Positions 44,835 to 59,931 of a stretch of 64,000 nucleotides of DNA are shown one piece after another. Position 1 is the first letter of the stretch. Every line of letters begins with the position of its first letter. The translations under genes and the position numbers were made by a program. The notes beneath the pieces were generated by a model that made no database searches, was not told the DNA's origin, and worked only from the letters and a program-made list of their open reading frames with translations. Origin of the DNA: Arachidicoccus sp. (GTDB lineage: Bacteria > Bacteroidota > Bacteroidia > Chitinophagales > Chitinophagaceae); assembly GCA_028283605.1 (NCBI GenBank), contig JAPWKH010000034.1:1-64000 (forward strand). Direction: 5' to 3'.

Positions 44835-46367
44835 ATGCATAAAAAATTGTTTGTTCTCTCGATTGTTGTGTTCATGGCTTTCGTACACAGTTTCGGGCAG
44901 CAAACAAGAGCCGAAATACAGCAAAGGCAAAAAGAATTGCAACAAGAACTGGATGACTTAAACACATCTCTTAGCGATGTACGCAAAAGCCAGAAAATAT
45001 CAATTCGCGAATTAAACCTTTTAGAGCAGAAAATAAAAGCGCGCCAACAGCTTATTGTAAATATTAATAATCAGTTAGAAGATCTGGATGAAACTATAGT
45101 AAAATGCAACCGGGAAGTCGATTCCTGTAAAAGACAATTAGACACTTTAAGAGGAAAATATGCAGAGAGCCTTGTATTTGCTTATAAAAACAGAAACAGC
45201 TACAATTATATCAATTTTTTATTTTCTTCCAGTTCCTTCAACGACGCTTTCCGCAGAGTAGCCTATTTAAAAAGTTACCGCCAGTTCAGAGAATCGCAAG
45301 CTGCAATTATTGTAAAAGCGCAAGCTATGCTTACTTCAAATATTGCCAAATTGGAAGCTTCGAAGAAGCAGAAAAACAATACCCTTACATTGCAAGGCTC
45401 GCAATTAGAAGGATTACAAAGCGACAGAAAAGATAAGGATAGCACCATTACTTTATTAAAAGGGCAGGAGGGAGATCTGAATAAAGAAATTGCTGCAAAT
45501 GCTGTAAAACGGAGAAGATTGCAAACAGCGCTGCAAGCAGCAATACGAAGGGAAATTGCCGAAGCCGAACGACGCGAACGCGAAAGGCAAGCAAAAATTG
45601 CCGCCGCCAAACGTGAAGAAGAAGAACGTGAAAGAATAGCCGAACAGCAAAAAGCGCTTACAGAAAGGCAACATCAGGAAGTAGCAATAAACACACCAAC
45701 CCCGAATAATTCGGTAAAAACAACAACACCTGCAACAAAGACACCTATCCGTAAACCAACCCAAACAAATACCCAAACATCCAAAGCAACTACACCTGTA
45801 AAACCAGTGCCAACTCCTCAGCAAGTACAACCCACGCAAACGCAACCAACACCTGTTCAGAAATCGGGAGACTTGGCTATAGCTGAAAATAAAAATAATC
45901 CTGCAAGAGAAAATCGTTCGTATAACGTTTTGGAAAATACCGATGAATCTTTAACGCAGTCTCTTGATTTTGAAAAAAACAGAGGCAAGCTTCCGTGGCC
46001 GGTAAGCGGAGGCTTCATATCCGAAAGCTATGGCATACAAACAATACCGGGAACAACTCTCAAACAAGACAATCCCGGTATTGAAATATCAACCAATAGT
46101 GGTAATGGAGCAGTAAGATCAGTCGCTTCCGGAATGGTATCTGTAGTTTTAAATGACGATGGATATTCTGTGATCATACGTCATGGCAAGTATTTTACTA
46201 CTTATAATAATCTAAGCAGCGTGAATGTAAATCGCGGAGACGAAGTAAAAGCCGGAACGGTAATAGGCCAAATGTCCTCCGACGGCGCTACTAAAAGCAT
46301 GTTCTTCATGGTAACGGACAGCAAAGGAAACTCATTAAATCCAACATACTGGATCGGGGGCAAATAA
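44835..46367 (+). CDS. EnvC-like coiled-coil/LytM protein (degenerate M23)
   Basis: A 510-residue exported protein: signal peptide 1-21, a long coiled coil (about 25-270, including RREIAEAERRERERQAKIAA), a Thr/Pro/Gln-rich linker (280-345) and a C-terminal LytM domain (385-510). The zinc ligands of active M23 enzymes are replaced: PGIEIS in place of HxGxD, TTYNNLSS in place of YxHL, and MFFMVTDSKG in place of LHFE. As in E. coli EnvC, it should activate amidases at the divisome rather than cut peptidoglycan itself. Confidence 0.88.
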   Translation: MHKKLFVLSIVVFMAFVHSFGQQTRAEIQQRQKELQQELDDLNTSLSDVRKSQKISIRELNLLEQKIKARQQLIVNINNQLEDLDETIVKCNREVDSCKRQLDTLRGKYAESLVFAYKNRNSYNYINFLFSSSSFNDAFRRVAYLKSYRQFRESQAAIIVKAQAMLTSNIAKLEASKKQKNNTLTLQGSQLEGLQSDRKDKDSTITLLKGQEGDLNKEIAANAVKRRRLQTALQAAIRREIAEAERRERERQAKIAAAKREEEERERIAEQQKALTERQHQEVAINTPTPNNSVKTTTPATKTPIRKPTQTNTQTSKATTPVKPVPTPQQVQPTQTQPTPVQKSGDLAIAENKNNPARENRSYNVLENTDESLTQSLDFEKNRGKLPWPVSGGFISESYGIQTIPGTTLKQDNPGIEISTNSGNGAVRSVASGMVSVVLNDDGYSVIIRHGKYFTTYNNLSSVNVNRGDEVKAGTVIGQMSSDGATKSMFFMVTDSKGNSLNPTYWIGGK

Positions 46368-46581: not shown

Positions 46582-46589
46582 TAACTTTG
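46582..46589 (+). promoter_or_regulatory. Sigma-factor gene -7 box
   Basis: TAACTTTG overlaps a potential TTG start at 46587, so translation must begin downstream, at ATG 46608. Confidence 0.55.
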
Positions 46590-46607
46590 AATATTTCAAT
46601 ATCTACT

Positions 46608-47207
46608 ATGGGGGGTATTTATACAGCATATTCTGACAAACAATTACTTACGTTTTTATCGGAAAATAATGAAGCGGCATTTACTGAAATTTTTGAAAGA
46701 TATCGTGAGCGATTGTTCTTTTATATAAAGAAGCACACGAAGTCTTCTGAAATAGCAGAAGAAATAGTGACCGATATTTTTATGAAACTGTGGGTTGGTA
46801 GAGATTTGACAGCAAAAATTGAAGATTTAGCAGGTTTTTTACATAAAGTTGCTTACTATAAGGCAATGGATTTTTTAAGAGTTACTGTCCGTCATGCACG
46901 ATTACAACAAGTTTATGTAACTCATGCATTTAATTCCAAGCCCGAGAAAAGCGTGCATGATATAATGATAGATGCTGAAGATCGCGAAATATTATATAAA
47001 GCAATTAATAAACTCCCACCTCAACGGCAGACTATTTACCGCCTTAGCAGAGAAGAGGGACTAACGCATGAAAAGATAGCCGAAATACTTAATCTTTCCA
47101 GAAGTACAATAAATAATCAACTCGTAAGTGCCGTTCGATCTATTGAATTGTATATAAGAAAAAAAAGAGGATTGCATACATTATACTTTTTTTTTATATA
47201 CATATAA
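46608..47207 (+). CDS. ECF sigma factor, FecI-like
   Basis: A 199-residue ECF sigma factor. Region 2 is AAFTEIFERYRERLFFYIKK to VAYYKAMDFLR (about 20-90); region 4 is LPPQRQTIYRLSREEGLTHE and KIAEILNLSRSTINNQLVSA (about 130-180). It pairs with the FecR protein 168 bases downstream and should switch on the SusC/D operon when the receptor binds ligand. The C-terminus ends in a hydrophobic tail (LYFFFIYI), slightly unusual. Confidence 0.92.
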   Translation: MGGIYTAYSDKQLLTFLSENNEAAFTEIFERYRERLFFYIKKHTKSSEIAEEIVTDIFMKLWVGRDLTAKIEDLAGFLHKVAYYKAMDFLRVTVRHARLQQVYVTHAFNSKPEKSVHDIMIDAEDREILYKAINKLPPQRQTIYRLSREEGLTHEKIAEILNLSRSTINNQLVSAVRSIELYIRKKRGLHTLYFFFIYI

Positions 47208-47375
47208 GAGTATAGATTGATTTTAAAATTCTATATTAATTTAACTTTCAGAAGAGCATACAACCTGCTCAAAATCCCATATTATTATATATAAATAATA
47301 AATATGTTAAAAAACTACTTTAACGAATAGTTATATTTTTTGACTAATGACGATATATATGTAATAAGATTCATT

Positions 47376-48557
47376 ATGCCGGAAAGCAAGACCAGATTAC
47401 AATATCTTTATGAGCAATTTGTACATGATAATGCAACAGCAAACGAGGTTGCAGAATTTTGGGCATTGTTGCAAAAGGCTGATGAAAACGATGCAGTTTC
47501 ACATTCTGTTTTTCAAGAATATAACAATAGCAATTCAGCACAGGAAAGCACATCTGTCAACTGGGCAATTGTTTTAGATAAAATATTCAAAACAAACGAA
47601 AGCGAAAAAAATGTAGCGCTTCGATTGCGAAAACAAATTTCATTCTATGCTGCGGCTATTCTCTTTTTGTTTTTTGTATGTAGTGGCATATGGTTTTGGC
47701 ATAATAAACAAGCCACACAACAGCTTGGCGATAATCTTATCGGTCAAGACAAAAAACCAGGATATAGCGGCGCAGTACTAACTTTAGCAAATGGGCAACA
47801 AATAATACTCGATAGTTCAGGTATCATCCCGATAAATATTCAAGGAACTACACAGATTGTCAAAAATGGCGGTAAAATTTGCTATTCTCCGAATGCCCAA
47901 AAGTCTTCATCGGTTGCTTATAATACACTTTCTACTCCCAAAGCCAGAGAGTTTGAAGTTTTATTGCCGGATGGTTCGCATGTATGGTTAAATGCCGCTT
48001 CTTCCTTACGATATCCAACGGCTTTTAAAGGAAATAATAGACAAGTGGAATTAACTGGAGAAGCATATTTTGAAGTTGCACATAACGCTACAAAGCCTTT
48101 TATTGTTAAAGTGCGCGATATGGAAGTAAAAGTATTAGGCACTCATTTTAATATTAATGCATACAGTGACGAACCAAGCATAAATACCACATTACTTGAA
48201 GGAAGTGTAAATATTTCAACTCACTCTTTTAGTCAAATGCTTAAACCCGGATGGCAGGCAAAAATAAGTAATAGTAATAGTAATAGTAATATTAGTATTG
48301 ATAAAGATATAGATGTTAATGAAGCAACTGCTTGGAAAAATGAGAAGTTTATATTCAAGGATGCAAACTTACAGGACATTATGCGCCAAATTTCACGTTG
48401 GTACAATGTGGAAATAGTTTATAACGGTGACATTACAAATGAAATGTTCAATGGAGTAATAGACAGAAAAGCAAACCTTTCAAGGATATTGAAAGTATTA
48501 GAATTAGGCGGAGTTCATTTTAAGCTAAAAGAGAACAAACTGTTTGTTAATCCGTAA
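47376..48557 (+). CDS. FecR-family anti-sigma factor
   Basis: A 393-residue inner-membrane regulator: cytoplasmic sigma-binding part (1-85), one membrane helix (about 89-108), periplasmic FecR domain (FEVLLPDGSHVWLNAASSLR; VKVLGTHFNINAYSD) and C-terminal DUF4974 (FKDANLQDIMRQISRWYNVE), which contacts the STN domain of the receptor. ATG 47376 is preferred to a TTG 36 bases earlier. A hexanucleotide tract AGTAAT x4 (48267-48290) encodes a Ser-Asn repeat between the two periplasmic domains. 47208-47375 holds no gene. Confidence 0.92.
   Translation: MPESKTRLQYLYEQFVHDNATANEVAEFWALLQKADENDAVSHSVFQEYNNSNSAQESTSVNWAIVLDKIFKTNESEKNVALRLRKQISFYAAAILFLFFVCSGIWFWHNKQATQQLGDNLIGQDKKPGYSGAVLTLANGQQIILDSSGIIPINIQGTTQIVKNGGKICYSPNAQKSSSVAYNTLSTPKAREFEVLLPDGSHVWLNAASSLRYPTAFKGNNRQVELTGEAYFEVAHNATKPFIVKVRDMEVKVLGTHFNINAYSDEPSINTTLLEGSVNISTHSFSQMLKPGWQAKISNSNSNSNISIDKDIDVNEATAWKNEKFIFKDANLQDIMRQISRWYNVEIVYNGDITNEMFNGVIDRKANLSRILKVLELGGVHFKLKENKLFVNP
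48267..48290. repeat. AGTAAT tandem repeat inside fecR
   Basis: Four perfect copies of a 6-bp unit encode (SN)n in the linker between the FecR and DUF4974 domains. Copy-number change would lengthen the linker without a frameshift. Confidence 0.8.
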
Positions 48558-48674
48558 TATATTTTGAATAAGAATATCCCATTTCATCACCACTCAAAAA
48601 CAGAAAAAATGATTAAACACAATTCAGAAAAAATATAAAGCAAATAGAAAAATAAACAATCATTAAAAAAATAA

Positions 48675-48702
48675 CCGGATAATGACTGCCATCATTATCC
48701 GG
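48675..48702 (+). promoter_or_regulatory. Hairpin in the fecR-susC intergenic region
   Basis: CCGGATAATGA (48675-48685) and TCATTATCCGG (48692-48702) form a perfect 11-bp stem with a 6-base loop. No T-run follows directly. It may cap the fecR transcript, stabilise the susC mRNA, or be a control site in the susC leader. Confidence 0.6.
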
Positions 48703-48770
48703 AATGCCAAAAGTGATTTTAAAAAAAGCGTTACCCAATTTCAAAACTTAAACTTAAGCCATACAAAAGT

Positions 48771-51700
48771 ATGAAATTAATCTTATGCGAAAAAAAGGAG
48801 CATGCTCCCTGCTTGCTATCCGGTAAAATACTATTGCAGATGAAACTTACGGTTTTCATTATGTTACTTTCCATTATTCAGGTATTTGGTAAAGCTGATG
48901 CACAAAGGATCAATTTATCCGGCAAAAACATATCAACTATTGCTGCTTTAAATACAATTCAAGCACAAAGCGGATACGATATATTTTACAGCTCGCACGA
49001 AGTCAAAGATGTAAAAATTAATCTTTCTCTTAATAACGTCTCTGTTGAAACTGCCTTAAGAAATGTATTGGATAAACAAAATCTAGAATTTAGTATCGAT
49101 GATCGAATTATTACGATTCATAAAAAAAGAGCGGCATCTATCATTACAACTGCATTGCCAGTTTCCGTACATGTTAAAGGAATAGTAGAAGATGAAAATG
49201 GCAAATCATTGTCCGGTGCTACAGTACAAGTGCTAGGCAAAAATATTTTTACAATGAGCACAGATGCAGACGGAGCATTTTCTTTTGATACCAACGAAGG
49301 AGATACTACCATTCAGGCAACATTTGTTGGATATAAAACCCAAAGCGTACACTTATTGGCAAACAAAACAAATTACACAATTGTACTTCCTATAATAGAT
49401 GCTAATCTAAAAGAAGTTGTTACAACGGGTATGTTTAATAAACCAAAAGAGAGTTTTACAGGTGCGGTAACCGTAATTACAAAAGATCAAATAAAAATGT
49501 TTGGTAATAGAAATTTACTTAAAACTATTGCGAACATTGATCCTTCTTTTAATATAACAGAACGCAATAATTACGGATCAGACCCAAATGTTTTGCCTGA
49601 TATTGATATTCGAGGCAGTACAACACTTGCTTCTGTAAATGATTTGCAAAGTAATGTAAGAAATACGCTGAATTTGCCTCTATTTATTTTAGATGGATTT
49701 GAGGTTTCTTTAGAGCGTGTATATGATATGAATCAAAGCGATGTAGAATCCGTTGTCATATTAAAAGATGCAAGTTCTACGGCCATGTATGGATCAAGAG
49801 GTGCGAACGGAGTTGTGGTAATTACATCTATTAAGCCGGTAGCAGGAAAGTTGAAAGTGTCTTATTCGGCAGGTGTAAATCTTGAGATACCTGATATTTC
49901 AAGCTATCATCTTCTAAATGCAACGGATAAATTAGCGCTTGAAAAATCTGTAGGACTTTATACTGCCACAGATTATTATTCACAAGATTTGCTGAGTACC
50001 TTGTACAATGCAAATTTAAAATCTGTAAAAGAAGGCGTTAACACCAACTGGGCGAAGGTGCCATTGCATACCGGAATTGGACAATATCACAAACTGGATT
50101 TAAGCGGTGGCGATGCTCAGTTTCGTTATGTGATGAACATTTCATATAATCAAATTACCGGCGCTATGAAAGGATCCAAAAGAGACAACTTCAATGGATC
50201 TATGAATATTATGTATTTACTCAAAAAAGTACGTTTTTCTAATAATTTGACGATAGGCTTTGACAATGCAGCTAATAGTACTTATGGAGACTATAGTACT
50301 TATGTATCTATGAATCCTTATTGGAATCCATACAATGCCGATGGCACGCCTGTAAAAATGTTTAATACATTTGGTAGTCAAACGCAACCCAATCCGGCAT
50401 ATAATGGTTCATTAACCGATTTCAACAAAGCACAATATACCTCTATTCGAAATACAACATCTATCGATTGGGATATCTTAAAAACTCTAAAATGGAGCAA
50501 CTCTGTAGGATATAGCAGGCAAATTGGAGGAACCGATGTCTTTATGTCTCCATCTAATTCCAACTATTGGCAAACTACTACCGTTTCATTAAAAGGGTCT
50601 TATTCTAAAGGAAACAGTTTTGAACAAGGCTATCAATTCCGTACTAATCTATCTTATGGTCAAGTATTCGGTTTACATAGTTTATACGTGGGGGCAAACG
50701 CACAGATATTGGAAAACAAAAGTAATTCCACTTCAATGTATGTTACAGGATTTATAAATGATCAGGAAACAGATATATCAAATGGTTATACCTATAGCGG
50801 AGACAGACCTTCCACTTCTGAATCGACTGTGCGTAGCGTTGAATTTAGTGGTACGATGAACTATAACTATAACAGCCGATATTTTGCAGACGCATCCTAT
50901 AATGTTAGCGGTGGTTCATCATTTGGACCTGATACACGATTCGGAAGATTTTGGTCAGTCGGTCTTGGATGGACCATTAGTAATGAACAATTTTTTAAGA
51001 ATAATATTTCATTTATTAATTTACTGAGATTGCGATACAACTATGGTGTAAGCGGAGGGCTCAATTTTGAACCATATCAATCATTAACAACCTACTCATA
51101 TGATCGAACCGCATTATACAGAACATTAATAGGTACCACACTTACAGCATTAGGCAATCCGGATCTTTCATGGCAAAATTCATTTCAACATAACTATGGA
51201 TTAGACGTCTCATTTCTTAATGGCAGAATATCACTCACTGCAAATTATTATCGCAAAAATACACCCAATACTATTACACAAGCTTACTTGCCTATTTCAC
51301 ACGGTTTTACAAGCTATACGGAAAACATGGGAGAGGTCAGAAATACAGGAACCGATGTATCACTTTCAGCTTATATCATTCGTGACGATGTAAAAAAATT
51401 TACTTGGGCAGTCACCGCCTCAATCTCTAATAACAAAAACGTGTTAGTCAAATTAAGTGACGCCTTAAAAAAGGCTAATGAAGCATATGCATCTCAAAAC
51501 TCTTCGTCCGGGCTTTATTATGAATATGTAGAAGGGCAATCAATTGATGAAATATATGTAGTAAAATCTCCAGGAGTAGATGCCACAAGTGGTAAAGTTC
51601 TTTATGAAAATTTAGATGGTACCATTACAACTTCTATTTCAGGTGTGGGCAAGATAGCTGTAGGAAGCTCTCAGCCAAAAATAAATGGACGTATGAGTAC

Positions 51701-52124
51701 CATGTTTAGATATGGATCCTTTGTCGCCAATATTGGATTTGCAGCAAGGTTAGGAGGGAAAAAACTGAATCAAACTTTATTGAGCCGTGTAGAAAATGCT
51801 TATATCCGACTCAATGTTGACAAACGTGTAAGCGAAAAACGCTGGCAAAAACCTGGAGATATAACTCCATATAAATCTATATTAAACACAGACAACACTT
51901 ATGCTAATGATAGGTTTGTGTTTACAGAAAATACTATTATGCTCAATAATGTCAATCTGAGTTATGAACTTCCCATGAAATGGGTAAAACATTTGAGTAT
52001 GCAGCGGATTGCAGTCACAGCTTCCATGAGTGATCTTTTTTACTGGAGCAATATTGAACAGGAACGTGGCACCTCTTATCCGTATACGCTGAAACCCAGC
52101 TTTTCAATTTCATGTACTTTTTAG
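48771..52124 (+). CDS. SusC/RagA TonB-dependent receptor with STN domain
   Basis: A 1117-residue receptor. A long N-terminal leader ends at KADAQ. An STN signalling domain (about 45-115, INLSLNNVSVETALRNVLDK) marks it as a transducer to FecR. Then come a CarboxypepD_reg-like domain (VKGIVEDENGKSLSGATVQV, about 133-215), the plug with the SusC hallmark MYGSRGANGVVVITS, and a large barrel ending KPSFSISCTF. With SusD it forms a pedal-bin importer. ATG 48840 would also give a signal peptide, but the long leader is usual for this group. Confidence 0.93.
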   Translation: MKLILCEKKEHAPCLLSGKILLQMKLTVFIMLLSIIQVFGKADAQRINLSGKNISTIAALNTIQAQSGYDIFYSSHEVKDVKINLSLNNVSVETALRNVLDKQNLEFSIDDRIITIHKKRAASIITTALPVSVHVKGIVEDENGKSLSGATVQVLGKNIFTMSTDADGAFSFDTNEGDTTIQATFVGYKTQSVHLLANKTNYTIVLPIIDANLKEVVTTGMFNKPKESFTGAVTVITKDQIKMFGNRNLLKTIANIDPSFNITERNNYGSDPNVLPDIDIRGSTTLASVNDLQSNVRNTLNLPLFILDGFEVSLERVYDMNQSDVESVVILKDASSTAMYGSRGANGVVVITSIKPVAGKLKVSYSAGVNLEIPDISSYHLLNATDKLALEKSVGLYTATDYYSQDLLSTLYNANLKSVKEGVNTNWAKVPLHTGIGQYHKLDLSGGDAQFRYVMNISYNQITGAMKGSKRDNFNGSMNIMYLLKKVRFSNNLTIGFDNAANSTYGDYSTYVSMNPYWNPYNADGTPVKMFNTFGSQTQPNPAYNGSLTDFNKAQYTSIRNTTSIDWDILKTLKWSNSVGYSRQIGGTDVFMSPSNSNYWQTTTVSLKGSYSKGNSFEQGYQFRTNLSYGQVFGLHSLYVGANAQILENKSNSTSMYVTGFINDQETDISNGYTYSGDRPSTSESTVRSVEFSGTMNYNYNSRYFADASYNVSGGSSFGPDTRFGRFWSVGLGWTISNEQFFKNNISFINLLRLRYNYGVSGGLNFEPYQSLTTYSYDRTALYRTLIGTTLTALGNPDLSWQNSFQHNYGLDVSFLNGRISLTANYYRKNTPNTITQAYLPISHGFTSYTENMGEVRNTGTDVSLSAYIIRDDVKKFTWAVTASISNNKNVLVKLSDALKKANEAYASQNSSSGLYYEYVEGQSIDEIYVVKSPGVDATSGKVLYENLDGTITTSISGVGKIAVGSSQPKINGRMSTMFRYGSFVANIGFAARLGGKKLNQTLLSRVENAYIRLNVDKRVSEKRWQKPGDITPYKSILNTDNTYANDRFVFTENTIMLNNVNLSYELPMKWVKHLSMQRIAVTASMSDLFYWSNIEQERGTSYPYTLKPSFSISCTF

Positions 52125-52153
52125 CTAAAAATAATTTAAACAAATAAAATATT

Positions 52154-53584
52154 ATGAAGAAAATTCAATTGCTTATTTTATTGTCGCTATTACTGATAGT
52201 AAGCTCATGTAATAAGTATTTAACTGTTGAGCCTGCTGCCGAAACTACAAAAGATAAGCTATTTAATAGCACGCAGGGTTATCAAGATGCGCTTGCGGGA
52301 ATCTATATAGATATGAGAAAAAATTATTCTCCTGCAAGCTTTTTGGTAAACGGAGATATTGAATTTATGGCTCAGCTTTGGTATGCCACTGTACCCGCTA
52401 CTTCTAATTACCAAATGGTTCATCATGATTATACTGCCACCCAGGCAGATGCCGATCTAGGAACGATGTTTTTAAATCAATATAATGTAATTGCCAATAT
52501 AAATTCATTGTTAGATGGGCTATCAACACAAAATATATTAGATTCAAATGTTGCTGCATTGATAGAAGGAGAAGCCTTAGCATTAAGAGCATTTAATCAT
52601 TTTGACCTAATTCGAATTTTTGGGCCTATGCCGAATAATATTGGTTCAAAAGCTTATTTGCCTTATGCCACTACTTTAACTAAAGATTCATATACTTATG
52701 ATACATATGAAAGTTACATGACTAAGTTATTGGCGGACTTGGATAAAGCGGAACCTCTATTATTAGCTTATGATCCTATTTTAAAATATGCACCAGCGGC
52801 TCTAAATACTACATGGGCATCTAAGGCATCTGCTGGATACACCACAATGTTTTGGTACTATAGGCAAAACAGAATGAACTATTATGCTGTACTTGGTTTG
52901 AAGGCGCGAGTCTACTTATGGATGGGCGATAAAACAAATGCAATGAAATATGCAAAAATGGTTATTGACGCTGTCAATACTGATAATACCAAAAAATTTA
53001 CATTTGGAACAAGGGCAAATCTATCTACCAAAAATTATGTTTTTTTTACGGAGCATCTGTTTGGGCTAAATATAACTACGTTTGATGATGGTACGATGTC
53101 AAGTAGTTCACTCGCAACGAATGTTACTCCTCAAACTAGAACATTGGGTGATTTATATGAAAACACTCCGGATTTGAGATATTCTCTTTTTTATAGTATC
53201 TATTCCAGCACTACAGGCACCACAAGTTCATCAACAAAAAAATATGCTGAGATGGTGGCGGCCACAGGAAGTACCAATCCATTTTCCGTTCCTTTGATAC
53301 GACTTTCAGAGATGTATCTTATCATGTGTGAATGTGCTTCTTTGGATGATGCCAATACCTATTTCTCCACGTTTATGACGGCCAAAGAAGCTACTGCTGT
53401 TACCCTTACCGATGCAAATAGAAATGATATAATACTTCGGGAGTACATCAAAGAGTTTTATGGAGAAGGGCAGTCATTTTATGCTTATAAACGTTTTGGC
53501 ACAACAGATATGCTATGGAGCGATCATACCACAAGTGATGCGCAATACGTAGTACCATTGCCTACTGAAGAAACCAATAACTAA
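52154..53584 (+). CDS. SusD/RagB-family lipoprotein
   Basis: A 476-residue surface lipoprotein (lipobox VSSC, Cys19), starting NKYLTVEPAAETTKDKLF as is typical of SusD-like proteins. The TPR-containing core has ALAGIYIDMRKN and GEALALRAFNHFDLIRIFG; the C-terminus has PLIRLSEMYLIMCECA and REYIKEFYGEGQSFYAYKR. It binds the ligand and delivers it to the SusC barrel. It is 29 bases behind susC in the same operon. Confidence 0.93.
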   Translation: MKKIQLLILLSLLLIVSSCNKYLTVEPAAETTKDKLFNSTQGYQDALAGIYIDMRKNYSPASFLVNGDIEFMAQLWYATVPATSNYQMVHHDYTATQADADLGTMFLNQYNVIANINSLLDGLSTQNILDSNVAALIEGEALALRAFNHFDLIRIFGPMPNNIGSKAYLPYATTLTKDSYTYDTYESYMTKLLADLDKAEPLLLAYDPILKYAPAALNTTWASKASAGYTTMFWYYRQNRMNYYAVLGLKARVYLWMGDKTNAMKYAKMVIDAVNTDNTKKFTFGTRANLSTKNYVFFTEHLFGLNITTFDDGTMSSSSLATNVTPQTRTLGDLYENTPDLRYSLFYSIYSSTTGTTSSSTKKYAEMVAATGSTNPFSVPLIRLSEMYLIMCECASLDDANTYFSTFMTAKEATAVTLTDANRNDIILREYIKEFYGEGQSFYAYKRFGTTDMLWSDHTTSDAQYVVPLPTEETNN

Positions 53585-53626
53585 AATTTTTATTAATTGA
53601 TTAATAAAAAAAGAAATTAAAGAATC

Positions 53627-54412
53627 ATGATAAAGATATTTAAATATAACAGCATTTTATTATTAGGATTACTCCTATTTATCTCATGCCATAAAGATGA
53701 ACCATCTACATACTCAGGTTCCGAGTATCTTGAGTTTGATTACACTAGCGATATACAGCAGGTTACTTCTGCCTATTCCACTTTTTATTATAAAGACTCT
53801 ACGGTAAAGTATGATACGGTTTATTTTGCCGTGCATGCATTGGGCGTTGTCCCAACAAAAACTAGCTATATAAAGTTTAAAGCCTATAAGGACACATCGG
53901 CTTCGCCGGCATATCCGGATGCTGTTGCTGGTGTACACTATATACCTTTTGATGATGCCAATATGATGGCACAAATGAAAATGGAGGCTGGTGAGGTAAG
54001 TGCAAGTGTCCCCGTAATATTGAAGCGGGACAAATCATTGAAAGACTCGGTGTACCAACTTCTTTTCACGATTGACTACTCAGATGATTTTTTGCCGGGA
54101 AATGCAAAGCATATACTTGGAGCCGTGTACATTTCCGATAAATTAAGTCAACCCTCCAATTGGACATCATCTTTTTTCTTGGGAACTTATGGACCGGTTA
54201 AACATCAGTTTATTATTGAACAATCAGGAGAGCGCTGGGACGCGGCATTTATCAGTACTCTTACAGGAAACACAAGTTTACAATCATATTATCTTTTCAA
54301 ATTTACACAAGCGTTAAAAACTGTAAATGCGGAACGTATAGCAGAAGGTCTTACGGAATTGAGGGAAGATCCTTCCTCACCTAGTTCTGCTGTTACATTC
54401 CCTTCTCTTTAA
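53627..54412 (+). CDS. DUF4843 lipoprotein
   Basis: A 261-residue lipoprotein (lipobox FISC, Cys21) of the DUF4843 family, normally found third in SusC/SusD operons of this class. Ig-like strands appear in YDTVYFAVHALGVVPTKTSY and VPVILKRDKSLKDSVYQLLF. It is probably surface-exposed and helps ligand capture; no activity is known. 42 bases separate it from susD. Confidence 0.85.
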   Translation: MIKIFKYNSILLLGLLLFISCHKDEPSTYSGSEYLEFDYTSDIQQVTSAYSTFYYKDSTVKYDTVYFAVHALGVVPTKTSYIKFKAYKDTSASPAYPDAVAGVHYIPFDDANMMAQMKMEAGEVSASVPVILKRDKSLKDSVYQLLFTIDYSDDFLPGNAKHILGAVYISDKLSQPSNWTSSFFLGTYGPVKHQFIIEQSGERWDAAFISTLTGNTSLQSYYLFKFTQALKTVNAERIAEGLTELREDPSSPSSAVTFPSL

Positions 54413-54430
54413 ATATATAAAACATTAAAG

Positions 54431-56026
54431 ATGTCAAACTTAAAATACATATATATATTCTTCATAGCTTGTTTAATCATGGTGTATTCCAGTTGTAAGA
54501 AAAATGATTATTCAATCAATGAATTGCCAGACATTACTATTACTGCGGATGCGGCTACCGAACATAGTATAGGCGATACCGTTAGAATTAGCCCGGAAAT
54601 TAGCTATGGTGGACAATCAGCAGAATTTACCTATAAATGGTATAAAGTAGTAACGCTACCTAGCTATGCTCAAGTATTGGTACAACTTTCGACAGATAAT
54701 GATTTTGTTGCAGTTATGGATAGTTTAGGAACATATGAAGTGAGAGAAGAAGTGACAAATGTAAGCACTGGCATAACAGCTGCTATTACGTTAAGTTGGA
54801 ATGTGGTAAGCCGTGCAGAACGTGGTTGGTACATCTTAAAAAGTACTTCAGATGGCAATACGGATATGGATGCTTTTCTTACGACAACTTCAGGAAATTT
54901 GAATTTGACTGATATCGTAACCGCTAAAAAAGGAAGCCCAATGACAGGAAATCCTGTTGGTATTGCATTTACCTCAGTATATTATGCTTTGGATACAGTG
55001 ACAAATAAATTTTCATATAACAATAGTTGTTTGATGCCTGTCAGCACTAAAGAGATTATGGCATATAGAATTAAAGATGAGAAAATACTGGCTAAGACAA
55101 ATCGTTTGTTTTACGAAGTGCCGGACTCAACCACCCGAAGTTTTGAAGGTTTGGCCTCCGATCCAAACTTGATGGTTTTGGTAAATCATGGTCGCTTGCA
55201 TGGAATGAATCCTATTTCCAACTGTTTTTTACCCGAGCGTTTAGGTGATTATTCACTTTCTCCTTATTTTACTTTGACACCTCATCTTACTTCTACTGAT
55301 GCAGGTTACATATTAGGTTTTGACCAGCAGAGTGAATCGTTTGTGATTGTTAGGTATAAGCAAACTGATTTGAGTTATTTCCCGGACGTATATTTAAATA
55401 GCTCCTCTGGGACACAATATAATATTTCATCCAATAATATGGGAGGAAAGTTGATTTTTCTGGAAAATACAGATGGTTCTCTAGATACGCTACTGACAAC
55501 AAATGGAAGAGCTTATGGTTTGTTGCGAAAAGACAATAGTAAGGATTTAGTATTACTTGGATTAAACCTTGCGGAATTAATACCCACTCGTTATAATGGC
55601 GCACATAGTCCGGTTCGTTACGCCGATACCATAACAGAAGCAAAACATTCAGACATAACTTCAGCAAGCCTTTATGCATTGAATAAAAATAACCCTATAC
55701 TATATTATACCAATGATAATCAAATAGGCGCATATAATATAGAAAGCAAAAGTAGCCAAAACATATATAGTTTTCCTTCGGGCGAGACGATAACTTATAT
55801 TAAGTTTATCGATTGTGAATACGACACACCTACGACTAACAATTTTACACAATTGGTTGTAGCTACCTATAATAATGGTCATTACAAGGTGTATAGATTT
55901 ACTGTTTTGGGTAATACTTTGGTTCAGTCTGGTTCAGTAATGGAGGGCAATGGTAAAGTAAAATCATTGATCTATACAACTCCTAATACCACTTCCTTTT
56001 TTAATGCGATGTATCGGTATTATTGA
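54431..56026 (+). CDS. PKD-like family lipoprotein
   Basis: A 531-residue lipoprotein (lipobox YSSC, Cys22). Residues about 35-140 form a PKD/Ig-like domain (EISYGGQSAEFTYKWYKV; ITLSWNVVSRAERGWYILKS). The rest resembles a beta-propeller-like binding domain without catalytic motifs. Proteins of this type follow DUF4843 in the same operon in many Bacteroidota. It likely serves as a surface binding protein; the ligand is unknown. Confidence 0.8.
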   Translation: MSNLKYIYIFFIACLIMVYSSCKKNDYSINELPDITITADAATEHSIGDTVRISPEISYGGQSAEFTYKWYKVVTLPSYAQVLVQLSTDNDFVAVMDSLGTYEVREEVTNVSTGITAAITLSWNVVSRAERGWYILKSTSDGNTDMDAFLTTTSGNLNLTDIVTAKKGSPMTGNPVGIAFTSVYYALDTVTNKFSYNNSCLMPVSTKEIMAYRIKDEKILAKTNRLFYEVPDSTTRSFEGLASDPNLMVLVNHGRLHGMNPISNCFLPERLGDYSLSPYFTLTPHLTSTDAGYILGFDQQSESFVIVRYKQTDLSYFPDVYLNSSSGTQYNISSNNMGGKLIFLENTDGSLDTLLTTNGRAYGLLRKDNSKDLVLLGLNLAELIPTRYNGAHSPVRYADTITEAKHSDITSASLYALNKNNPILYYTNDNQIGAYNIESKSSQNIYSFPSGETITYIKFIDCEYDTPTTNNFTQLVVATYNNGHYKVYRFTVLGNTLVQSGSVMEGNGKVKSLIYTTPNTTSFFNAMYRYY

Positions 56027-56097
56027 TCATTATATTAAAATTATAAACAAAAATTAGGCATTTCAATTATTATTAAATTATAAAATAAGGCAATTAG

Positions 56098-57219
56098 ATG
56101 AAGAAGAATTTATTATTGGTATTGGCGGCATTTCCGATTGGTGTATATGCGCAACAGCATTTTAAAATTGTTGGGAAATTGCATAAGGTGCAATATCCGG
56201 CTCATGCTTATGTATATTATCAGCAAAATGGAGCTTTACGTTTTGATTCTACCACTGTTAAGGATGATATGTTTACTTTGGAAGGAAATGTTTCAGAACC
56301 AATGAAAGCATTCGTTTTGCTTTTCCAACGAGGGTTAACAAGCAAACAAATTGCAGGTCCCGATCAAGTGGGTGTTTATTTGGAAGATGGAACAATCTAT
56401 ATTAATTCTGCCGACACATTAACACATGCAACTGTAAGTGGAACTAAGCTGAATGAAGATCAGCAAACTTTAATAAATACGCTGGCTCCCTTTAAGAAAA
56501 AAGAAACTGATTTGAATAATACATACAAATCAGCGGAAGGAGATAGCGATTTGCAACTTACAACTAAAAAGCAATACGAATCTTTACTGGAAGAGAAGGA
56601 AAAGACAGAAATTTCGTTTATTAAAAGTCATAATACTTCGTTGGTAAGTTTAAATTTAATTCGTCAGGCTTTTGATCCAATTAATAACCAAAATAAGGCG
56701 CAAGAATTAATAAAATCGCTCAGTAAAGATTTACAGGAACATCCTGCAGCAAAAAGATATTTTGAGACTGCACAGAAGGCTCAAGCGGTAAATGTCGGAG
56801 CAATAGCGCCTGATTTCTCCATGAAAAACACAAAAGAAGAGATGGTATCTTTATCTTCATTTAAAGGAAAATATGTATTGCTTGATTTTTGGGCGAGCTG
56901 GTGCGGGCCATGCCGTGCAGAAAACCCAAACGTTATCAATGCTTACAATGCATATAAGGAAGATAATTTTACTGTGTTAGGTGTATCATTGGATGGAGGC
57001 ACTAATGGACGCGAAAATTGGTTAGGCGCCATACAAAAAGATGGCTTGCCTTATGAACAACTTTCAGATTTACAGGGGAATAATAATGCTGCAGCACGTC
57101 TTTATATGGTTACAGAAATTCCAACCAATTTCTTGATAGATCCAAATGGAAAGATTATTGCCAAAAATTTAAGAGGCACATCATTAATGGATAAATTGAA
57201 AGAAATACTTTCTAAATAA
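56098..57219 (+). CDS. TlpA-like thiol:disulfide protein with DUF4369 (CGPC)
   Basis: A 373-residue exported protein: signal peptide (1-18, ending VYA), an N-terminal DUF4369 domain (about 22-120), a helical linker, and a thioredoxin/AhpC-TSA domain with WASWCGPC (Cys269/Cys272) and the cis-Pro region EIPTNFLIDPNGKII. It should reduce or isomerise disulfides in the periplasm, perhaps of the operon's receptors or of the imported ligand. It is 71 bases from the previous gene and has a tandem paralogue downstream. Confidence 0.88.
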   Translation: MKKNLLLVLAAFPIGVYAQQHFKIVGKLHKVQYPAHAYVYYQQNGALRFDSTTVKDDMFTLEGNVSEPMKAFVLLFQRGLTSKQIAGPDQVGVYLEDGTIYINSADTLTHATVSGTKLNEDQQTLINTLAPFKKKETDLNNTYKSAEGDSDLQLTTKKQYESLLEEKEKTEISFIKSHNTSLVSLNLIRQAFDPINNQNKAQELIKSLSKDLQEHPAAKRYFETAQKAQAVNVGAIAPDFSMKNTKEEMVSLSSFKGKYVLLDFWASWCGPCRAENPNVINAYNAYKEDNFTVLGVSLDGGTNGRENWLGAIQKDGLPYEQLSDLQGNNNAAARLYMVTEIPTNFLIDPNGKIIAKNLRGTSLMDKLKEILSK

Positions 57220-57284
57220 ATCATTCTAAAAAATAAATTGAACGTGTGGTTAAGTAAAATCGCACATTACAAAAATCAGTGATA

Positions 57285-58406
57285 ATGAAGAAATATATAT
57301 TGTTCATTTGTTTATTTATTTCAGTTATTGGATTCTCTCAGGTAAAATATACCATCAAGGGTTCTATGAAAAATATCAATGGCGCTGCAGCCTGTGTGTA
57401 CTATAAGATAGACGGTAAAGATTTCCTTGATACGGCAACCATTATCAATGGCAAATTTGTAATCCAAGGTACAGTTCCTTACGAATTAAAAGCAACCATA
57501 TTTGTTCGTCCAATCAAATACAGTTTTATTGAACAGCCCAACCGCTCAGATCAGATTGATGTATATTTGGAAAGTGGTATCATTACAATCAACTCTACAG
57601 ATTCCCTAAAGTATGCAACGATTGGAGGTACTCCATTAAACAATAATTATCGCCAACTCGTTAAGTTATTAACACCTTTTAAAATAGAAGAAGAAGCCTT
57701 GTATGTTGCAAAAAGGCGTGCGCAGGATATTCCGGATGAAATGCCAAAGGTGATGGCTGCCTACCAGGAAATGGCAAACAGGCAAAATCCCATTCAATTT
57801 CAGTTTATCAATACCCATTTAAATTCATTGGTTGCGTTGGATTTGCTTTCTGAAACCGTAGACCCCGCATTTCAACTTTCAACGGCTAAAACGTATTTCA
57901 ATAAATTTCCTAAACGTTTGCAAGAATCTCCTACAGGAAAGACCTATTCCGGTCTTTTTAATGTTGCCGTCGGTTGTCAGGCCCCGGACTTTTCTTCCAA
58001 AAATATGGATGGTAAACAAGTTTCACTATCTTCCTATAAAGGCAAATATGTACTGCTCGATTTTTGGGCGAGTTGGTGTATGCCATGCAGAGCAGATAAT
58101 CCATATATTAAAAAGATATACGAAAAATTTAAGGATAAAAATTTTGCTATATTAGGATACTCTCTAGACTACGGACCTCAAGGAAAAAAGTACTGGCAAA
58201 AAGCTATAACTATGGATAGCGTTACATGGGACCAGGCTTCTGACTTGGAAGGCTTTCAAAGTGTTCCGAGTAAATTGTACAGTATCACTGCCGTGCCTAC
58301 TAATTTTTTGATTGATCCGTCAGGAAAGATTATTGCAAAAAACCTACACAGGGAAGCGCTAGAAAACAAATTGTCCGCTTTATTAAAAGCGCATTTCAAA
58401 CAATAA
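57285..58406 (+). CDS. TlpA-like thiol:disulfide protein with DUF4369 (CMPC)
   Basis: A 373-residue paralogue of the preceding protein: signal peptide (1-18, ending GFSQ), DUF4369 domain, helical linker, thioredoxin fold with WASWCMPC (Cys265/Cys268) and AVPTNFLIDPSGKII. The X-X pair of the active site is Met-Pro instead of Gly-Pro, which would change the redox potential. ATG 57285 is preferred to a GTG two codons earlier. Last gene of the SusC/D locus. Confidence 0.87.
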   Translation: MKKYILFICLFISVIGFSQVKYTIKGSMKNINGAAACVYYKIDGKDFLDTATIINGKFVIQGTVPYELKATIFVRPIKYSFIEQPNRSDQIDVYLESGIITINSTDSLKYATIGGTPLNNNYRQLVKLLTPFKIEEEALYVAKRRAQDIPDEMPKVMAAYQEMANRQNPIQFQFINTHLNSLVALDLLSETVDPAFQLSTAKTYFNKFPKRLQESPTGKTYSGLFNVAVGCQAPDFSSKNMDGKQVSLSSYKGKYVLLDFWASWCMPCRADNPYIKKIYEKFKDKNFAILGYSLDYGPQGKKYWQKAITMDSVTWDQASDLEGFQSVPSKLYSITAVPTNFLIDPSGKIIAKNLHREALENKLSALLKAHFKQ

Positions 58407-59190
58407 ATTACAATGCATTTCAATGCCTCAAGTTGATAAAATCCATTAAAGCAACTTTCTCGTCCTGAAATAGCTTTACACAAACAAATTTCAGATGACG
58501 ACACAAAATAGAAAAATCAATGCCGATGGGCTTTTGAAGCGTAAGTCCTGGCAACGTTTGAAAAAAATCTGCCAAAAACAAGGTTATACGAGACGTAACT
58601 GTGGGTCATATGGGTTATTGCGAAACCAATATTTTGCCTTTACCCAATTAATTTTCGGAAGAAAAGTAAATAAATTATTGTAAGATATTTTCGATAGATA
58701 GTTTAGTAGTTGTTTAAATTGACACCCGAAATATTGAATAACAAAATCAGTTGGATTATTGCCTTTGCTGATGATAATATTTTTTAAGAAGAAACAGAAT
58801 ACATCTTTATTCTTAGGTGAGGGGTACCAGAAATGCCAGTTCTTTATCCGGTTCCGTTGAGTGTTCAATACCACAGTGGAATAGATGGAAATGATTTGTT
58901 TTGTATCCTTGATTGGAAGTTCGCTCTTTAAGTAGGCTGATTAATAAGCACAAAAAAGACTTGCAGATATAGCTTATTCATTGCTATACTTGCAAGTCCC
59001 TCTATATCTTGTAAAAAAGTGATTCTAAATAACTCCAACTTGGGGCACAAGGCAGAAAATGCCCGAATTTCAGAAGGCTGCTCAATATTGAACAATTCTT
59101 TTTCTTTCATTTTTAGTAAGGTGTGCTCAAATACCGGATGGATTCCAGATGTTCTAAACGATAGTTAAAAGACGACATTCTTATTTTCCC
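58407..59190. other. 784-bp region without a recognisable gene
   Basis: Only short open frames occur here. The longest is on the minus strand, 58584-58874 (96 codons, containing WHFWYPSPKNKDVFC), open 15 codons further upstream if no start is demanded. A 60-codon minus frame lies at 58928-59110 (MKEKELFNIEQPSEIRAFSA). I recognise neither. They may be pieces of one decayed minus-strand gene interrupted by a stop near 58930. The region also contains the terminator hairpin at 58952-58998. Confidence 0.4.
58952..58998 (-). terminator. Strong minus-strand terminator hairpin
   Basis: GACTTGCAGATATAGC (58958-58973) and GCTATACTTGCAAGTC (58983-58998) pair over 16 bases with two mismatches and a 9-base loop. 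On the minus strand it is followed at once by six T (58957-58952). No recognised gene lies upstream of it on that strand. Confidence 0.7.
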
Positions 59191-59198
59191 TAAATTCG
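59191..59198 (+). promoter_or_regulatory. comB -7-like box, four bases before ATG
   Basis: TAAATTCG, a TTCG variant of the -7 consensus, ends at 59198 and CCGC leads to the ATG at 59203. The spacing matches bioB, the MBL gene and pyrD. Confidence 0.5.
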
Positions 59199-59202
59199 CC
59201 GC

Positions 59203-59931
59203 ATGGAAAAACCTCAGTTGCATACGATACTCACTCCTAAGTTGCTGGATTTATATGATGCAGAAAACAGCATTGTTGTCATCATCGATGTATTTCGCGC
59301 TACTTCTACCATTGCTACAGCATTGTATAATGGCGCTAAAGAAATTTATCCTGTCGCCGATGTGCAGGAATGTATTCTATTAGGGAAAAATTTAAATGCC
59401 ATTACGGCGGGAGAGAGAGATGGAAAAGTAATTGAAGGACTGCAATTTGGAAATTCGCCAACTGAATATTCCCAGGATGTAATAGAAAATAAAATATTAG
59501 TCATTACCACAACCAACGGCACTAAAATGCTTCAAATGGCTTTAGACCAAAATGCCGATTCAATTATTACAGGTTCATTTCCAAATCTTGGAGCAGTATG
59601 CGAGTATCTTATCAGTCAAAATAAAAATGTATTGCTTGGCTGTTCGGGATGGAAAGACAGGTTCAATCTGGAAGATGTTTTATTTGCCGGTGCAGTTGTC
59701 AGTAAGGTTTCTGAGCATTTTACTATCCATTGCGATAGCAGCCTAATGGCAAAAGAATTGTATGAACTTCACCAAAAAGATATAAAACAATTCATCCGTA
59801 AAACAACACATTGGCATAGGTTGGAAGCGTATGGATTGGAAAAAGACCTTGAATATTGCGTTACGGAAAATGCAGCCAATGTACTTCCGTTGTATAATAA
59901 AGAGAAAAGAGCATTGCTAATTCATCGGTAA
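59203..59931 (+). CDS. comB: 2-phosphosulfolactate phosphatase family protein
   Basis: A 242-residue ComB-family Mg-dependent phosphatase. Signature stretches are VVIIDVFRATSTIATAL, AGERDGKVIEGLQFGNSP and ITTTNGTKMLQ. In methanogens ComB serves coenzyme M synthesis; in bacteria without that pathway it is assigned to sulfolactate metabolism or an unknown phosphatase role. It is monocistronic. No other sulfolactate gene is in the window. Confidence 0.88.
   Translation: MEKPQLHTILTPKLLDLYDAENSIVVIIDVFRATSTIATALYNGAKEIYPVADVQECILLGKNLNAITAGERDGKVIEGLQFGNSPTEYSQDVIENKILVITTTNGTKMLQMALDQNADSIITGSFPNLGAVCEYLISQNKNVLLGCSGWKDRFNLEDVLFAGAVVSKVSEHFTIHCDSSLMAKELYELHQKDIKQFIRKTTHWHRLEAYGLEKDLEYCVTENAANVLPLYNKEKRALLIHR

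Follow-up and report, generated by a model that had tools for sequence, protein, structure and literature searches.

SusC/SusD pairs known to import oligopeptides include RagAB of Porphyromonas gingivalis and BT2263-2264 of Bacteroides thetaiotaomicron, and oligopeptides are named as the ligands of RagAB and BT2263-2264 (Bt2261-64) in the parts of the two sources drawn on here (PMC10132118, PMC7782687). For Flavobacterium collinsii, susCD loci with peptidases are predicted to serve oligopeptides, and thioredoxins, DUF4843 and PKD_2 go unmentioned in the portion of that source used (PMC10132118); peptidases in polysaccharide utilisation loci are mentioned in an excerpt of a further paper (PMC7768429). 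None of the titles listed in the literature searches concerned thioredoxins at SusCD loci, and DUF4843 occurred in two of the papers searched. The locus reported here lies in a 64,000-nucleotide stretch of Arachidicoccus sp. DNA (GenBank assembly GCA_028283605.1, contig JAPWKH010000034.1, positions 1 to 64,000 of the forward strand), the whole of which is called the window. It has in common with RagAB and BT2263-2264 a SusC/SusD pair with a proposed peptide ligand, but here the pair is joined by an STN/FecR/sigma factor triad, by DUF4843 and PKD_2 lipoproteins and by thioredoxins. Judged by its gene content, the locus is a variant SusCD importer, most likely of peptides, in which reduction of the cargo is the probable task of the thioredoxins.

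Domain scans with Pfam and NCBIfam found eight co-directional genes on the + strand at 46587-58406 (Table 1), with the domains listed by a first-pass annotation of the window, including two DUF4369-thioredoxin proteins with the motifs CGPC and CMPC. The transporter scores above the cut-off of the SusC model and adjoins the SusD gene, which places the pair among the SusC/RagA transporters with a SusD lid. Its STN domain and the adjoining FecR and extracytoplasmic function (ECF) sigma factor genes form the gene set of a signalling triad, the signalling itself being predicted. The order SusC-SusD-DUF4843-PKD_2 is present, and the numbers of matches in the whole genome were one for PKD_2, one for DUF4843, ten for DUF4369 and 48 for SusC. 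No degradative enzyme and, in particular, no carbohydrate-active enzyme was found by these scans among the eight genes, in agreement with the earlier statement that this is not a normal polysaccharide utilisation locus. A peptidase gene, a usual but not strict mark of oligopeptide SusCD loci, was likewise not found in the operon.

The window locus is one of a recurrent kind. Comparison loci were selected by the presence of PKD_2; 10 of 39 relative genomes and 5 of 296 genomes of a phylum sample contained a match (the window's own counted in both). The 36 matches in relatives were taken as 20 kb stretches (one of 14.5 kb). To these were added the named locus L040 of Pedobacter sp. HMWF019 (17.7 kb; the sole locus from that contig search), the orthologue L080 from a genome of the same family, whose PKD_2 is 67% identical to that of the window, and seven PKD_2 matches elsewhere in the phylum. 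One of these 45 loci, L086, had neither a PKD_2 reading frame nor an adjoining SusC/D and was dropped; the remaining 44 came from 15 other genomes, 14 of them from a single genome, and are not independent. SusC, SusD and DUF4843 preceded PKD_2 in all 44, a recurrence of the core that is more than chance, and same-strand FecR and sigma factor genes were present in 42/44 and 39/44, respectively. Genes were labelled by phmmer with representatives that included the positional neighbours of every third locus, a procedure partly circular for the core genes; a Pfam check detected DUF4843 in all 37 proteins given to it (window and 36 loci).

Tails, defined as the genes behind PKD_2 with gaps of up to 350 bases, contained a thioredoxin-type protein in 31/44 loci and a peptidase-type gene in 18/44, including a fragment in L080. 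Both occurred together in 15 tails (L080 fragment counted), an ABC gene occurred in nine, and four tails had none of the three. Tail families were determined by Pfam on representatives and the remainder were assigned by phmmer. The peptidase-type genes were trypsin-like (L040, L056, the L080 fragment, and L054 behind a gap of about 360 bases), met-zincin DUF4953 (L045, L052, L065, L075), S46 (L062, L066), S41 (L047), aspartyl (L041, L055, L083, L084) and M16 (L071, L073, L083, L084) peptidases, together with alpha/beta hydrolases (L063, L070) that are weak as peptidase calls. With a gap limit of 500 bases, L054 adds a thioredoxin and its trypsin-like gene, giving 32/44 and 19/44, and it was counted with both on the SusC tree. 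On this tree (44 rows) at least 8 changes were needed for the thioredoxin label and at least 12 for peptidase presence; therefore, tails appear to have been often swapped or lost. By the grouping of the tree, 15 comparison loci share the state of the window in having a thioredoxin but lacking a peptidase label. The absence of an enzyme, noted in the first-pass annotation, is thus no defining trait, as relatives often have a peptidase-type gene.

A carbohydrate-active enzyme deleted from the window was also considered and rejected, since the PKD_2 tail proteins scanned, namely representatives and 25 otherwise unlabelled proteins, included no glycoside hydrolase; what appears to have been lost is a peptidase (see below). 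The Pfam scan of unlabelled tail proteins covered the first six tail genes with products of at least 150 amino acids, and the families shown (25 of 42) included glycosyl transferases and one M20 peptidase.

Two sets of control SusC loci were compared. The first consisted of the 20 best-scoring of the 48 SusC matches in the window genome, and neither a thioredoxin (0/20) nor a homologue of the PKD_2-tail peptidases (0/20) was found in its tails. These polysaccharide utilisation loci have SusC and SusD, and in part sigma factor and FecR, in common with the window locus, but differ in the glycoside hydrolases and sulfatases of their tails (GH2, GH16, GH26, GH35, GH88, GH92 and sulfatases among the 25 of 88 families shown; 69 proteins, Pfam). 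The stretches of L101 and L104 in this set contain thioredoxin genes that belong to neighbouring loci. The second control, the 20 lowest listed SusC matches from three genomes, gave thioredoxins in 6/20 tails, peptidases in 3/20 and ABC-MutS genes in 2/20; its L121 is the same locus as L092 of the window genome. Control peptidases were sought by similarity to the PKD_2-tail families, with a Pfam scan in addition for the first control only. Against the pooled controls, thioredoxins were enriched in PKD_2 loci (31/44 versus 6/40, Fisher 2.3e-7), as were peptidase-type genes (18/44 versus 3/40, Fisher 3.5e-4), and the first control alone gave 2.9e-8 and 2.9e-4, all on loci that are not independent. 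The association of the thioredoxins with SusC/D that had been proposed was thereby upheld.

The thioredoxin/peptidase tail is enriched in PKD_2 loci yet extends wider than that class, and a thioredoxin link special to DUF4843/PKD_2 loci was given up after the second control. Loci L124 and L134 of that control have a thioredoxin and a peptidase but carry neither a DUF4843 nor a PKD_2 label, and DUF4369-thioredoxins were found at three other SusCD loci of the window genome, L089, L090 and L092. More generally, L115, L121, L124, L128, L130, L134, L089 and L090 resemble the window locus in SusC, SusD, one or two thioredoxins and sometimes a peptidase, but the lipoproteins in the place of DUF4843 and PKD_2 are missing or of another family, the extra lipoproteins of L089 and L090 being BT_3987-like. 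The second-control tails therefore make the finding part of a wider SusCD set with peptide-type tails, with the DUF4843/PKD_2 loci as its denser portion.

In the SusC tree the window grouped with L080 (SH-like approximate likelihood ratio test, SH-aLRT, 99) and then with L040 (SH-aLRT 100). Identities of L080 and L040 to the window were 69 and 61% for SusC, and 76 and 64% for SusD. Each of the three loci has two thioredoxins. The motif of protein 1 is CGPC in the window and CVPC in both clade loci, to whose first thioredoxins it is 57-58% identical; protein 2 has CMPC in each of the loci. L040 has a 474-amino acid trypsin-like gene that begins on the last base of thioredoxin 2, a one-base overlap. 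In L080 only pieces resembling residues 9-53 (E 0.012) and 385-468 (E 1e-20) of its product were found, and a tblastn search with the L040 protein gave no match in the window gap 58407-59202. The window genome as a whole gave just two distant matches (30 and 25% identity). The simplest reading of these three loci, which leave the direction of the change unproven, would be a loss of the trypsin-like gene after the split from L040.

The thioredoxin domain has a WASWCxPC motif and a nearly invariant proline, P342, and both CXXC cysteines were invariant in 35 aligned proteins. In these features and in the AhpC-TSA/thioredoxin domain the window proteins agree with periplasmic thioredoxins of the TlpA/ResA type; they differ in an additional N-terminal DUF4369 domain and in failing to reach the NCBIfam cut-offs for ResA, TlpA and DsbE. 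Two DUF4369-thioredoxin modules are joined in one protein of L048 (CGPC, CGWC), and a 681-amino acid protein of L049 has two CGPC motifs (motif count only). The window genome encodes a DsbD-type membrane protein and two VKOR-domain proteins, so both reduction and oxidation routes may exist. A DUF4369 protein appears in a table within the part of PMC10434189 consulted.

On the reading we favour, which we consider reasonably probable, the genes constitute a SusCD-type operon for the import of peptides or protein fragments, combined with periplasmic disulfide reduction, whose own trypsin-like gene would have decayed in the clade. The SusD, DUF4843 and PKD_2 lipoproteins would catch the ligand at the cell surface, and SusC, energised by TonB, would move it across the outer membrane. 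Contact of the ligand with SusC would be relayed through STN and FecR to the sigma factor, which would switch on the operon. Once in the periplasm, the imported peptide would have its disulfides reduced by the two thioredoxin-like proteins, presumably exported by their signal peptides and fed by a DsbD-type reductase, and would then pass to digestion by periplasmic peptidases, encoded elsewhere once the trypsin-like gene of the operon had decayed.

Further links of DUF4369 proteins to peptides were observed in the window genome (G000). On contig C9, the SusCD locus L090 combines a thioredoxin and a trypsin-like peptidase with a DUF4369-thioredoxin (CRPC) 66.7% identical to window protein 1. 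On the same contig, a C39 ABC exporter of L093 is preceded by a LanC-like gene, and between the exporter and an HlyD protein are two distinct frames, one short and of DUF4369, the other thioredoxin-like. In L094 (contig C3) a DUF4369-thioredoxin gene lies ahead of split C39-ABC exporter frames, and a C39-VKOR-thioredoxin protein is encoded upstream. L093 and L094 are apparent peptide-export clusters. If SusCD is taken as import, peptide-type import or export adjoins six of the genome's eight DUF4369 regions (window, L089, L090, L092, L093, L094), L088 and L091 being the exceptions.

The clients of the thioredoxins might be peptidases or the periplasmic pool at large, and not the ligand, in which case the thioredoxins would support protein digestion by helping with folding or stress. 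The co-occurrence of thioredoxin and peptidase-type genes in 15/44 loci (again with the L080 fragment) is in agreement with such a role; however, 16 of the 31 thioredoxin tails have no peptidase-type gene and the window retains both thioredoxins without one, and we regard this explanation as unlikely. Somewhat less likely again is that the ligand is a lanthipeptide-like natural product with disulfides or thioethers, which the cell imports as a nutrient, signal or cue and not as a food protein. It would suit the position of DUF4369 proteins beside C39 exporter genes, near LanC in L093 or the C39-VKOR-thioredoxin protein in L094, the window operon without a peptidase gene, and the rarity of close PKD_2 orthologues, found at E 1e-30 in one of 393 other genomes of the family (394 with the window's own). 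The two clusters, however, lie on other contigs with no direct link to the operon, and many enzyme-bearing comparison tails look digestive.

The first-pass annotation had suggested a ligand in need of thiol handling, for example a disulfide-containing peptide or a thiol-bound metal, and a peptide with this need is the best reading of the present data. STN/FecR/FecI triads are a classic arrangement in iron uptake, but no metal- or siderophore-uptake family was present among the tail families shown (representatives and 25 of 42 families of unlabelled proteins), the tails being made up of thioredoxins, peptidases or ABC genes, and uptake of a thiol-bound metal or siderophore is very improbable. 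Redox maintenance of the lipoproteins, also put forward in that annotation, and likewise of the transporter, has co-location as its sole argument and is hardly credible. The window proteins have one cysteine in SusC (counted from residue 51) and, after the lipid anchor, two in SusD, none in DUF4843 and three in PKD_2. The anchor is the sole widely conserved cysteine column, followed by C394 of SusD (18/37) and columns of at most 9/45 in the other proteins, and mean cysteine numbers were nearly alike in 31 loci with and 11 without a thioredoxin. With cysteines so few and unconserved, the transport proteins are unlikely thioredoxin clients.

Several results weigh against peptide import with disulfide reduction. 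No peptidase-type gene was present in 26/44 tails and no thioredoxin in 13/44, with an ABC gene in 9/44. The thioredoxin link reaches beyond the DUF4843/PKD_2 loci, to 6/20 tails of the second control and to L089, L090 and L092; the probability given to the favoured reading was left unchanged by this, because the second-control loci have the same kind of tail. The trypsin-like protein of L040 has the His and GDSGG, but in the alignment, with the motif read by eye, the expected catalytic Asp is missing, although it is present in the proteins of L054 and L056, and the L040 protein may itself be inactive. Sequence searches of solved structures gave no convincing relative of either lipoprotein (best 6nz0 at 0.012 for PKD_2 and 3nqk at 0.005 for DUF4843), and they did not give the match to the BT2261/BT2262 lipoproteins that had been expected. 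AlphaFold models from two-row alignments (window and L040) had a mean predicted local distance difference test score (pLDDT) of 34.9 for PKD_2 and 37.0 for DUF4843. The SusD profile matched 37 distinct solved sequences; the strongest match was 3kez (9.8e-50), which bears the name of a putative sugar-binding protein, and RagB (2.5e-11) ranked far below it.

SusCD pairs are usually taken as sugar importers, and the neighbourhoods described here show repeated non-sugar use. They combine a swappable enzyme tail with a recurring thioredoxin, offer a clear test of coupling between import and disulfide reduction, and suggest a peptide-capture role for DUF4843 and PKD_2, two uncharacterised lipoprotein families. 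A bolder and doubtful extension would see in the thioredoxin-tail SusCD loci a class of importers for cross-linked peptides, either disulfide-rich or similar to lanthipeptides, with the DUF4843/PKD_2 loci as its most regular part. Two thioredoxins with distinct CXXC motifs would open the ligand in two steps once it has entered, the peptidase would be exchangeable, and its loss from the window clade would be explained by a ligand that serves as a cue or special cargo and not as food.

Table 1. Genes of the operon and the gap behind it, in window positions.
Feature	Position	Strand	Evidence
ECF sigma factor	46587..47207	+	Sigma70_r2, r4_2; TIGR02985 113.7 bits, below cut-off 126.4; first start TTG, in-frame ATG at 46608
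FecR-type anti-sigma factor	47340..48557	+	FecR 1.2e-19, FecR_C 3.6e-19
SusC/RagA TonB-dependent transporter, N-terminal STN	48771..52124	+	STN, Plug, beta-barrel; TIGR04056 554 bits (cut-off 368), TIGR04057 54 bits
SusD/RagB-like lipoprotein lid	52154..53584	+	SusD-like_3 43 (cut-off 27), SusD_RagB 27.5 (cut-off 23.1); lipid-anchor C19 in 36/37 aligned loci
DUF4843 lipoprotein	53627..54412	+	PF16132 4.4e-15; C21 in 37/37 aligned
PKD_2 lipoprotein	54431..56026	+	PF16407 3.2e-14; C22 in 36/36 aligned
DUF4369-thioredoxin protein 1, CGPC	56098..57219	+	DUF4369, AhpC-TSA; apparent signal peptide (by-eye reading)
DUF4369-thioredoxin protein 2, CMPC	57279..58406	+	DUF4369, AhpC-TSA; apparent signal peptide (by-eye reading)
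Gap at the place of the L040 trypsin-like gene	58407..59202	+	Remnant not found here by tblastn

Intergenic gaps from SusC to the last gene were 18 to 71 bases, with 132 bases between sigma factor and FecR and 213 between FecR and SusC. A terminator scan gave no excess over shuffled sequence (8 sites, shuffle mean 8.0), and two + strand terminator-like sites fell within genes. No enzyme follows the operon, since the next gene begins 796 bases on, at 59203, and belongs to another family, that of 2-phosphosulfolactate phosphatase. The gene directly upstream (44835-46367) has a peptidase M23 domain, with an EnvC-like protein as its best NCBIfam match, below the cut-off, and was left out of the operon.

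The sigma factor of the window was 21-25% identical to those of the clade loci and the N-terminus of FecR 13%, though SusC was 61-69% identical, and L040 and L080 likewise differ from each other in this region. Exchange of the regulators is possible, and it is indistinguishable here from fast divergence.

Alignments A1-A3 covered the window and L040-L076. L041 and L069, whose PKD_2 is split over two frames, were included in the tail count and left out of the PKD_2 alignment and the cysteine means; L051 was excluded from the cysteine means as well as from the alignments of SusD and DUF4843, and L041, with a short SusC frame, is absent from the SusC tree. Both split PKD_2 genes lie on a single contig of genome G002 and may reflect sequencing error or decay.

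Tails with an ABC ATPase and a GldG-like membrane protein were found behind PKD_2 in L043, L059, L067, L071, L073, L074, L076 and L087, and behind SusD in L122 and L123. An M16 peptidase occurred in three of these ten tails, and MutS-like labelled proteins in eight (Pfam MutS III and V were run on L059 only), a MutS-like pair being an odd component of an uptake operon.

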